From positions 1 through 64,000 of the forward strand of contig NZ_JAIVAI010000002.1 of assembly GCF_020171525.1 (NCBI RefSeq): DNA of 64,000 nucleotides. The letters are read 5' to 3'. This document shows positions 27,696 to 45,644 of the stretch, piece after piece. The DNA comes from Halobacillus yeomjeoni (lineage in GTDB: Bacteria > Bacillota > Bacilli > Bacillales > Halobacillaceae). The position numbers were made by a program, and so were the translations under genes. The first letter of the stretch is position 1, and every line of letters starts with the position of its first letter. The notes below the pieces were generated by a model. The model ran no database searches, was not told the origin of the DNA, and saw only the letters and a list, made by a program, of their open reading frames with translations.

Positions 27696-28490
27696 ATGAA
27701 AAAATTATTAGCTTCATTATCTGCTGTTGTATTGATTTTGGGAATGTTTGCTCCATCCGTGTTTGCGAAAGATCACGCTGATATGGCCAAGGTCCGTGGC
27801 CTTCACGCTTCACCTGATGCTCCAGCTGTAGATGTATATGTCGATGGAAACGCTGTTGTCGAAGGCGCTGAATTCAAAGCCGCAACTGACTATATGGAAC
27901 TACCAGCCGGAGAGCACCAAGTAGAAATTTATGCTGCTGGTACGAAAGGCAGCCAGGATCCGGTCATCTCTGCGAACGTGAACGTTGAGGCTGGAATGGC
28001 TTATACTGCCGCTGCCATCAACACGTTGGAAAACCTTGAGTTAAAGGCGATCCAGGATTCTATGGAAGCTGCTGAAGGAAAATCTAAAGTACGCGTAGGC
28101 CACTTCATTCCAGGTGCACCTGCGGTTGACGTAGGTTTGGTCGGTAGAGATGCGATCTTCTCTGGCGCTGAATTCCCGATGGTTACAGACTACAAAGAAC
28201 TTGACCCGGGTACGTATGATCTGGAAGTCCGCACAACAGACGGCACACAGTTGATCGACCTTTCTGGAACGACATTAGAAGGCAGTAAGGTTTATAGTGC
28301 GTTTGCTGTAGGAACGGCTGACAACCCTGAAGTTCTATTGCTTGAAGACTCTGCTGCGATGCCGACTTCCATGCCTAAAACAGGCTTCGGTGGTGCCAAT
28401 GATTCCAACGCTTTACTAGCAGCGACTGCTCTTGGACTAGCTGCAATGGGCGCTGGCTTCGTGATTTTCCGCAGACGTTCAGAAGCGTAA
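27696..28490 (+). CDS. Cell-wall-anchored DUF4397 surface protein
   Basis: 264 residues. Signal peptide (1-24, cut after SVFA), then two DUF4397 repeats starting VRGLHASPDAPAVDVYVDG (about 33) and VRVGHFIPGAPAVDVGLVG (about 130). The sorting signal is at the C-terminus: MPKTG (an LPxTG variant, about 227), a Gly/Ala/Leu helix and the tail RRRSEA. It is acidic overall, like many haloadapted surface proteins. The sortase gene starts four bases after its stop, so that sortase is the likely anchoring enzyme. AAGGAGTGG precedes the ATG. Confidence 0.9.
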   Translation: MKKLLASLSAVVLILGMFAPSVFAKDHADMAKVRGLHASPDAPAVDVYVDGNAVVEGAEFKAATDYMELPAGEHQVEIYAAGTKGSQDPVISANVNVEAGMAYTAAAINTLENLELKAIQDSMEAAEGKSKVRVGHFIPGAPAVDVGLVGRDAIFSGAEFPMVTDYKELDPGTYDLEVRTTDGTQLIDLSGTTLEGSKVYSAFAVGTADNPEVLLLEDSAAMPTSMPKTGFGGANDSNALLAATALGLAAMGAGFVIFRRRSEA

Positions 28491-28493
28491 ACA

Positions 28494-29177
28494 ATGAAAA
28501 AGATATGGTTTCCTGTAACCCTGGGCTTCCTCGTATTTATCGTAAGCTTCCAATTGCTTAAAGATGAACCCGCTAAGGAAGCCAGGGTTCTTTCTTCTTC
28601 ATCACCAAAAAACACGGAAGTCACAAATATTGGCACCGAATGGGTCAAGGATGATCTTGAGTCCGCTCCCATCAAAAAGAACTATACACCCGCAACAGTC
28701 GTCGGAGAAAATGACGGTACAGGAATCCGTCCAGATCGAATCGTCATTCCTTCTATCGAGGTGGATGCAAAAGTTCAAGCCAAAGGGTATACAAAAGACG
28801 GTGGAATGGCCGTTCCTGACAGCGTCACTGACGTAGGATGGTTTGAACCCGGGACAGAACCAGGCCGCAGAGGAAATGCCGTCATCGCCGGTCACGTGGA
28901 TGGTCAATATGGTCCTGCCGTATTTTTCGACCTAAAAAAGCTTCAATCCGGAGATGAACTTCATGTCTATGATAAAAAAGGAAACAGACTCACCTACACG
29001 GTGCAGGAGGTCGTCGCCTACCCCGTCGATCAAGCACCCATCCGAAAGCTTTTCGGACCGACAAATAAAAAAGCACTTAACCTGATTACGTGTACAGGGA
29101 CTTATGATAAAAGTGCAGGGGGATATTTGGAACGGTTAGCCGTATATACAGTATTAACCGACCGTACAAAAGCTTGA
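28494..29177 (+). CDS. Class F-type sortase
   Basis: 227 residues. One N-terminal signal-anchor helix (about 4-20), then a linker, then the sortase barrel (about 75-222). Catalytic His in VIAGHVDG (about 134), Cys in LITCTGTYD (about 199) and Arg in YLERLAVY (about 213). The short size, and the absence of the class A/B/D signature around the Cys, point to class F. Same operon as the MPKTG protein, three bases apart. It acts on the outer face of the membrane, joining the protein to peptidoglycan. Confidence 0.87.
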   Translation: MKKIWFPVTLGFLVFIVSFQLLKDEPAKEARVLSSSSPKNTEVTNIGTEWVKDDLESAPIKKNYTPATVVGENDGTGIRPDRIVIPSIEVDAKVQAKGYTKDGGMAVPDSVTDVGWFEPGTEPGRRGNAVIAGHVDGQYGPAVFFDLKKLQSGDELHVYDKKGNRLTYTVQEVVAYPVDQAPIRKLFGPTNKKALNLITCTGTYDKSAGGYLERLAVYTVLTDRTKA

Positions 29178-29219: not shown

Positions 29220-29248
29220 TTCACATTTTCAGCAAAATCGATTATGAT
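29220..29248 (+). promoter_or_regulatory. Promoter of the structured leader RNA
   Basis: TTCACA (29220-29225), 17 bp, TATGAT (29243-29248). The start is predicted near 29255, so the leader would be about 200 nt. Confidence 0.6.
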
Positions 29249-29254
29249 AAAGGT

Positions 29255-29457
29255 AGTTGTTACTGTAAACGTTTATGGTACAGGGAAGGCAAATGGTGCG
29301 CCACCAGTTTATACTGGTTCTAGTGGGTTCGATTCCCACCCCGAATTTTTGTGAGCTTTTGATAAAAATTCGAGGGTGGTCCGGACCAACTACCGGCGTG
29401 GCGTTTGCCTTTTTGCGCGCGTTCGGCCACCCTCCTAACATCAAGGAGGGATTTTTT
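29255..29457 (+). ncRNA. Structured leader RNA with tRNA T-arm mimic (candidate riboswitch)
   Basis: Seen in sequence: closing helix 29287-29293 with 29404-29410, continued by 29299-29304 with 29398-29403. Hairpin P2 is 29304-29308 with 29313-29317. P3 is a perfect 5-bp stem with the 7-nt loop TTCGATT (29323-29339), exactly a tRNA T-arm. P4 is a 9-bp stem (29342-29350 with 29364-29372). P5 is 29375-29380 with 29389-29394. Downstream, CCCTCC (29430-29435) pairs with GGAGGG (29445-29450) followed by six T: a terminator that also covers the ribosome site of the GNAT gene. The alternative is GAGGGTGG-T-CCGGAC (29372-29386) pairing with 29421-29434, 14 bp with one bulge. Mutually exclusive folds indicate regulation; the ligand is unknown. 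Confidence 0.7.
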
Positions 29458-30009
29458 ATGCTGAAAAAACGTGATTTACACGAAGCCCCGGTTTTATACG
29501 AGTTGATGAGCCACCCGGAAGTTTTTCCTTATGTCCGCCACAAAGCTTCTTCGACAGATGAGTTTTACTTCGTGACTAAACAAACCATAGAAGCAGAAGA
29601 TCGGGGTGAATTGATTTCACGTACCATCCTTGATGAGTGGGAGCAGCCGATCGGAACGATCAACCTTTTTGACGTCCAGGACAACAAAGGATTCCTTGCC
29701 ACTTGGATCGGCAAGCCGTATTTCGGGAAAGGGTATAATAAAATAGCGAAAGAGGCATTTTTTGAAGAGCTCTTCTTCCATTTGAATATTGAAGCGATTT
29801 TCATGAAAATCCGCCGCACGAACCAACGCTCGATGAAAGCCGCTCTTAAAATTCCTTATGTCAGTTCTGCCAACTTCTCCTACCCTGACATCCACGCTTG
29901 GGTAAACCGGATTGAAGATGTATATGATTTATTTGTAATTACGAAAGAGCAATATTTGTTCCATTACTACGGTGACCAGTCTCAGAACGAAGAAGCATTG
30001 GAAGCATAA
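29458..30009 (+). CDS. GNAT family N-acetyltransferase under leader-RNA control
   Basis: 183 residues, Acetyltransf_3-like (RimJ/YdaF type). The acetyl-CoA loop region is in WIGKPYFGKGYNKIAKEA (about 80-97), preceded by the strand PIGTINLFDV. The usual NxxS of the family is replaced by RRTNQRSMKAALKI (about 119-132). The tail is acidic, QNEEALEA. The target (protein N-terminus, amino acid or antibiotic) is not evident. The ribosome site AAGGAGGG is within the 3' half of a terminator hairpin, so both transcription and translation should depend on the leader. Its own terminator overlaps the stop codon. Confidence 0.85.
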   Translation: MLKKRDLHEAPVLYELMSHPEVFPYVRHKASSTDEFYFVTKQTIEAEDRGELISRTILDEWEQPIGTINLFDVQDNKGFLATWIGKPYFGKGYNKIAKEAFFEELFFHLNIEAIFMKIRRTNQRSMKAALKIPYVSSANFSYPDIHAWVNRIEDVYDLFVITKEQYLFHYYGDQSQNEEALEA

Positions 30010-43356: not shown

Positions 43357-43615
43357 TAAAAAAATCCGTCTCCTACTTAAAGTAAGAGACGGATACTCTA
43401 TTCAAGAACCGCGGTGCCACTCTCATTGTCCAGACTGCTGGACCAACTCGAAGCTGATAACGGGGGCTCCCGGTTCTAGCTACTCAATTTCACTGAACTT
43501 CTCTGAAGTGCGCTTCCGAAAGGATCGATCACCAGGCTTGCACCACCCCTGACTCGCTGAACACCGTAACCATTCGTACTCTCTTCATCACAGAATGTAT
43601 TTTTATTAGTTTATG
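43357..43615 (-). ncRNA. T-box leader of argGH, arginine type
   Basis: The minus strand has the T-box AGAGTGGCACCGCGGTTC (43406-43423) and, just before argG, a 14-bp terminator hairpin (43364-43394) with seven T. The stem I side has the distal-loop sequence GGTGCAAGCC and GAAGCGCACTTC, in which CGC (43511-43513) is a fitting arginine specifier. Uncharged tRNA-Arg would stabilise the antiterminator and turn on argGH. The specifier is an inference from position. Confidence 0.85.
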
Positions 43616-45526: not shown

Positions 45527-45570
45527 TTCTGTTGGTCTGATAATAAAATAATAAATCCGTAAATATAACG

Positions 45571-45644
45571 GGAGAGGTTCTAGCGACACCCTCTATAAAA
45601 AACTAAGGATGGAACTATACCTTGCCTTAGGTATGGTTTTTTTA
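45571..45644 (+). ncRNA. preQ1-I riboswitch with terminator
   Basis: GAGAGGTTCTAGCGACACCC, then TCTATAAAAAACTAAGGA (45571-45608), is the class I preQ1 aptamer: P1 AGAGG/CCTCT, C-rich loop and A-rich tail forming the pseudoknot. It is followed by an ACTATACC/GGTATGGT hairpin and a T run (45613-45643). It should end transcription when preQ1 is abundant. It precedes queC, the expected target. Confidence 0.95.

Follow-up and report, generated by a model that had tools for sequence, protein, structure and literature searches.

The window that we analyzed, a 64,000-nucleotide stretch of Halobacillus yeomjeoni DNA, contains a gene for a GNAT acetyltransferase that starts with the ATG at 29458 and is preceded by a structured RNA leader (Table 1). 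The reading frame of the gene is open upstream through the leader (29275 to 30009, plus strand), which we regard as an accident because a stop codon interrupts this stretch in 151 of 171 unique leaders. No NCBIfam family scored above its cut-off for the protein. When the GNAT profile was compared with PDB sequences, the best match was MccE (E value of 3.3e-7), followed by RimJ/RimL-type and spermidine acetyltransferases, and the predicted structure (pLDDT of 92.4) resembles many GNATs equally. MccE acts on an aminoacyl-nucleotide. The GNAT alignment holds 51 of 73 representatives; 33 of these 51 members match a model for IleRS that includes a GNAT domain, far below its cut-off, and two of six do so at an E value of 0.01. 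An aminoacyl compound as the substrate of the GNAT protein is a lead only.

Several other features lie in the window. Positions 27696 to 29177 (plus strand) encode a DUF4397 protein whose C terminus matches a sorting domain weakly, below the cut-off, and this gene adjoins one for a sortase that resembles class F at a score below that model's cut-off. A T-box leader (43382 to 43600, minus strand; 102.3 bits) and a PreQ1 riboswitch (45568 to 45612, plus strand; 42.3 bits) are located further downstream. The promoter-like site listed in Table 1 is no better than chance, with two such sites found and 1.9 expected in the stretch scanned, and a 9-of-12 promoter match in the 60 nucleotides before the leader core occurs in only 25 of 170 relatives.

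Table 1. Coordinates of the leader features and of the GNAT gene in the window (SD, Shine-Dalgarno)
Feature	Position	Strand	Evidence or remark
Promoter-like site TTCACA-17-TATGAT	29220..29248	+	10/12 matches; weak
tRNA-like cloverleaf domain	29283..29342	+	R1 score 116.8 bits; tRNA model 24 bits versus cut-off of 29; covariation, none in closing helix
Closing helix (acceptor), 3 bp	GGG 29283-29285 with CCC 29340-29342	+	Conserved
D-arm GGC/GCC, loop AAATGGTGC with tRNA-type D-loop GG	29288..29302	+	Loop invariant except for two columns, 99 sequences
Anticodon-like arm, free loop	29303..29318	+	Double-sided changes in 5/6 pairs
T-arm GTGGG-TTCGATT-CCCAC	29323..29339	+	Double-sided changes in 2/5 pairs; 100% of cells paired
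CCACCC, 3' strands of T-stem and acceptor, other side of X	29336..29341	+	6/6 X pairs possible in 133/167 leaders
Hairpin P5	29343..29371	+	Double-sided changes in 6/7 pairs
SD look-alike GAGGGTGG, 5' strand of P6; 29374-29379 is one side of X	29372..29379	+	
3' strand of P6 CCACCCTC, holds most of the anti-SD	29427..29434	+	
P7, CCCTCC 29430-29435 with GGAGGG 29445-29450	29430..29450	+	Masks SD; terminator-like
SD AGGAGG	29444..29449	+	Sequence
T6 run after P7	29452..29457	+	Lineage-specific
GNAT acetyltransferase, 183 aa, stop codon included in span	29458..30009	+	PF13302, E value 4.4e-12

The whole leader folds better than 200 of 200 dinucleotide shuffles (z score of −6.1), and its conserved part is a core at 29283 to 29379 (plus strand). 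A blastn search with the leader matched 49 of 61 genomes, its own counted, in 22 of 30 genera. Many of these matches were restricted to the core, GGGAAGG through GAGGGTGG, which was kept across families of the order. From 35 sequences of the core we built the covariance model R1. In 398 genomes of the class, 34 hits of R1 reached 75 bits or more, and all others scored 40.2 bits or less; in a second family (f36), 81 genomes gave 29 hits at 53 to 99 bits; and 299 genomes of the phylum gave four hits of at least 80 bits, all four inside the class. An exact pattern, which requires the D-arm and T-arm and is therefore biased, placed the core in at least 119 named contigs, including those of Geobacillus, Anoxybacillus, Bacillus coagulans, Halobacillus, Oceanobacillus, Virgibacillus, Neobacillus, Rummeliibacillus, and Viridibacillus. 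The set of 198 loci used below came from a regular expression with the same D-arm and T-arm bias, and only the model hits are free of it. Some places among the 198 were fetched twice, and a start codon was found for 197 (L146 was dropped). This set yielded 171 unique leaders, of which 167 were used for the pairing and energy analyses, four (L043, L105, L173, and L180) being left out by the rule that defined the SD look-alike.

No Rfam 15 family reached its cut-off in the window's leader, the best being tRNA (24 bits, with the cut-off at 29), and the leaders of 20 relatives gave sub-cut-off matches only, to tRNA-Sec (two) and tmRNA (four). Literature searches, judged by titles and the openings of abstracts, returned no paper on the leader; it is in this sense, together with its absence from Rfam 15, that we call it uncatalogued. 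The original prediction of an uncatalogued, riboswitch-like leader before a GNAT gene agrees with these searches and with the genes found downstream. The leader is widespread and, as a cis-regulatory RNA with a tRNA-like domain, apparently uncatalogued.

The comparison of sequences supports a core that would fold as a truncated tRNA cloverleaf, with an acceptor of 3 bp, a D-stem of 3 bp, an anticodon-like stem of 5 to 6 bp with a free loop, and a T-stem of 5 bp with the loop UUCGAUU and an exact tRNA T-arm, followed without a gap by hairpin P5. Of 100 loci given to the model alignment, 99 matched and L279 did not. The alignment of 97 distinct sequences has 97.8% of its cells paired, and 13 of 24 pairs vary on both sides, with a covariation score of 0.174 versus 0.074 for shuffled and 0.012 to 0.037 for slid alignments. 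This alignment was fitted to the structure, unlike alignment A1 (35 of the 44 distinct cores found), in which 7 of 24 pairs had double changes and the score was 0.121 versus 0.052 when shuffled. The acceptor and D-stem showed no double changes among the 97 sequences, and the acceptor is broken in three diverged ones. The T-loop is the same as that of tRNAs in 98 of 99 sequences, and the D-loop GG is present in all 99, as are the AA of J1/2, the AA and UGGUG of the D-loop, and the UA of the last junction; the anticodon-like loop varies in length. This invariance of the D-loop and junctions exceeds what a tRNA elbow would need, a hint of a possible binding site.

The leader had been described from the window's sequence as a closed multibranch fold with a closing helix in two parts and four hairpins, one of them a T-arm mimic with a perfect 5-bp stem and a TTCGATT loop, and a covariance-model search for homologous leaders had been proposed. 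That search found homologues with covariation, and the T-arm is present in the sequence. The core of the fold is conserved and covaries, but the two-part closing helix and the 5' segment at 29255 to 29282 are unconserved, and the conserved closing helix is the 3-bp acceptor. The four hairpins are present and are identified here as the D-, anticodon-like, and T-arms of the cloverleaf plus P5, so that the likeness to tRNA extends beyond the T-arm to the whole domain. P5 carries long insertions in four leaders (L047, L132, L139, and L090) that otherwise retain the leader. An alternative hairpin, TGGTG-CGC-CACCA at 29294 to 29306, would sequester the D-loop GG and be incompatible with the D-arm and anticodon-like arm; its five pairs are kept in 98 of 99 sequences (G-U allowed, column counts), which proves nothing because one side never varies.

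P5 is followed by the SD look-alike GAGGGUGG, which can form helix P6 with CCACCCUC, CUGCCCUC, and similar sequences downstream. In the window's leader, we found the 14-bp pairing of 29372 to 29386 with 29421 to 29434 and the terminator-like P7 stem, followed by an A and T6, both as originally described. Seven or eight of the eight look-alike bases were paired in P6 in 133 of 167 leaders, versus 37% when the rest was shuffled, and all eight bases, UGG included, in 99. The second pair of P6 is A-U in 134 leaders, C-G in 6, U-A in 3, G-C in 1, and unpaired in 23. The original list of exclusive pairings was correct around the ribosome site and lacked the competitor of the cloverleaf, which we call X: GGGUGG of the look-alike (29374 to 29379) with CCACCC of the T-arm and acceptor (29336 to 29341), a pairing that excludes the cloverleaf. 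X showed no double change in the leaders compared. The 5' strand of P6 retains a U despite 95 U-G pairs versus 2 C-G pairs and a G despite 85 G-U pairs versus 9 A-U pairs. Such retention would be expected if X holds the same strand too; we infer this constraint, since X is without double changes and the leaders are related.

Folding energies, which disregard tertiary contacts and were computed for leaders many of which are closely related, put X lowest in 144 of 167 leaders, the T-arm being kept in 15, and the X state lay below the cloverleaf state by a median of 7.7 kcal/mol. When the cloverleaf was imposed, P6 formed in 142 of 167 leaders. At least four of five SD bases were free in 69 of 167 leaders with the cloverleaf imposed versus 3 with X, and at most one of five was free in 44 versus 120. 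In the window's own leader, the imposed cloverleaf lay 18.5 kcal/mol above X, P7 persisted, and none of the five SD bases was free. The link between cloverleaf and SD thus rests on the comparison of leaders, and P6 in the window's leader would need a folding order or an effector. The minimum fold of this leader pairs 29283 to 29306 with 29390 to 29412 (GGCGTGGCGTTTGCC), and a T5 run then follows. In silico, the leader has a conserved structured domain joined to an expression platform of mutually exclusive pairings, as a riboswitch does.

A constitutive enhancer of translation or element of mRNA stability, with a tRNA-like fold and with alternative pairings that are not used as a switch, would account for the absence of covariation specific to X, and authentic tRNAs inserted in a leader boost translation without a ligand, according to PMC9142559. 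We consider this improbable: P6 covaries, which would be of little use without an alternative, and X is the computed minimum in most leaders.

A terminator that also hides the ribosome site had been proposed for the leader. The second half of this proposal holds generally, and the first holds for some lineages at most: a T5 run within the last 22 nucleotides up to the start codon is present in only 63 of 171 unique leaders, which makes SD masking the general output and termination at most a lineage trait. No SD look-alike is present in the leaders of Scopulibacillus (L146), Tuberibacillus (L173), and Pullulanibacillus (L105). Two of these leaders allow their SD region to pair with the last junction and T-stem, namely L146 (99 of 20,000 shuffles as strong) and L173 (9 of 20,000); L105 has no notable pairing of this kind (14,147 of 20,000). 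The minimum fold of L146 includes this pairing, and those of L173 and L105 retain the cloverleaf with the SD inside a local hairpin.

The set of elements before one GNAT gene is well supported: the cloverleaf, whose D- and T-loops are of the tRNA type, then P5, the SD look-alike, the anti-SD, and the SD. Its best explanation, to which we give a probability of roughly 0.6, is a conserved ON switch that acts in cis and has a truncated tRNA-like domain as its sensor. By default, as sequences and computed energies suggest, the look-alike would pair with the 3' strand of the T-arm and acceptor (X) and open the cloverleaf, and the anti-SD would be left to mask the SD through P7, which with a U-run would also act as a terminator. 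A stabilized cloverleaf would instead allow the look-alike to pair with the anti-SD in P6, and the SD would become free. The switch is likely to be OFF by default and ON when the cloverleaf is stabilized, which is also how the yjdF riboswitch works. Analogy with yjdF points to a small molecule linked to the GNAT substrate as the most probable stabilizer, with a putative site formed by the junctions and the D-arm, which are invariant; the next candidates would be a protein that binds the elbow, or the ribosome. The originally suggested sensing of acyl-tRNA, of a tRNA-binding protein, or of a translation state is conjectural; the domain has neither a CCA end nor a fixed anticodon loop, which makes a factor that senses those parts unlikely. 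More specifically, the leader may represent a new riboswitch class in which the tRNA fold serves as the sensor and the SD look-alike as a relay. The molecule sensed would be one that affects tRNA or translation and is acetylated by the GNAT protein; we make this proposal tentatively.

The same switch could respond to tRNA handling or to the state of translation if the fold were held by an elbow binder, such as a T-arm modification enzyme or RNase P, or by the ribosome. The near-perfect match to tRNA in the T-loop and the constant D-loop GG are what such a mimic would show, and PMC9142559 describes that translation in vitro is increased by yjdF as well as by grafted tRNAs, and that folded yjdF binds ribosomes. 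However, the acceptor is only 3 bp, the CCA end is absent, and the conservation of the D-stem and junctions beyond the needs of an elbow favors a specific pocket, which leaves sensing of a protein or the ribosome rather unlikely.

The leader and the gene are tightly linked. A GNAT ortholog lies 98 to 229 nucleotides downstream in all 198 motif loci (45 to 100% identity, duplicate fetches included) and in all 26 model-found loci of f36, which share species with the named-contig loci and overlap the 198. Twenty genomes of the order lack the leader, as judged by no blastn match or no strong R1 hit. One of these (G250) has a clear GNAT ortholog (51% identity), near which the model scored nothing at 6 bits or above, 8 have weak GNAT matches only (33% identity or less), and 11 have no GNAT match at an E value of 0.001. 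In f36, the GNAT gene is kept in 18 of 24 genomes lacking a model hit, and full-model scans of nine loci with the gene and no hit gave 14 bits or less. The gene is found without the leader and not the reverse, which indicates that the leader follows the gene and that the gene can do without it. By eye, L320 resembles a decayed copy of the leader. Several f36 genera (L306, L309, L312, L317, and L318) share a different-looking leader about 180 nucleotides before the GNAT start, which carries GTCTAGTTCT and often GGGTTTGAAT and may be a diverged relative.

The occurrence of the leader only before this GNAT gene in the loci checked, together with the resemblance of the protein to MccE, whose substrate is an aminoacyl-nucleotide, would fit autoregulation in which the GNAT protein binds its own tRNA-like leader. 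We think this quite unlikely, since binding that stabilizes the cloverleaf would switch the gene on, which is odd for feedback, and the GNAT gene is retained without the leader in f36. The leader would be the second known, besides yjdF, to be built as a tRNA-like cloverleaf. Its occurrence in tractable non-pathogens such as Geobacillus and Halobacillus makes the tRNA fold testable as a general scaffold for gene-control sensors, and its effector, once found, would give a clue to what an uncharacterized acetyltransferase family acts on.

Among known RNAs, the T-box (RF00230) shares with the leader a tRNA theme, a terminator in some species, and the segment AGGGUGG, which we take to resemble the T-box sequence. 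A T-box-type leader that senses tRNA in trans is very improbable, as the original prediction had also judged: we found no RF00230 match in the leader at an E value up to 10, whereas the T-box leader elsewhere in the window scores 102 bits; no stem I or specifier was seen; and the UGGN bulge is not free, UGG being paired in P6 in 99 of 167 leaders. We rejected a T-box on these grounds. The tRNA family (RF00005) has the same order of cloverleaf arms, the T-arm, and the D-loop GG, but the leader has a 3-bp instead of a 7-bp acceptor, no CCA end, and an anticodon-like loop of variable length instead of 7 nucleotides. A tRNA gene was rejected because the RF00005 score is below its cut-off and ARAGORN finds only a tRNA-Ala in the window.

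The yjdF (azaaromatic) riboswitch (RF01764) is the most alike in working. As described in PMC9142559, it has a tRNA-like four-way fold with a D-loop/T-loop pair, uses its T-arm in the OFF pairing, is ON when folded, and in some members precedes acetyltransferases. The RF01764 model gave no match in the leader at an E value up to 10, and its one match in the same genome, sub-threshold at 19.7 bits, lies outside the leader. We rejected membership in yjdF on the lack of a model match and on J1/2, which is only AA in all 99 leader sequences, whereas yjdF, according to that source, has a long, purine-rich J1/2 that forms its binding site. The two also differ in that the leader precedes one gene family and in that its T-arm would pair with the SD look-alike, whereas the T-arm of yjdF, according to the same source, pairs with the SD itself.
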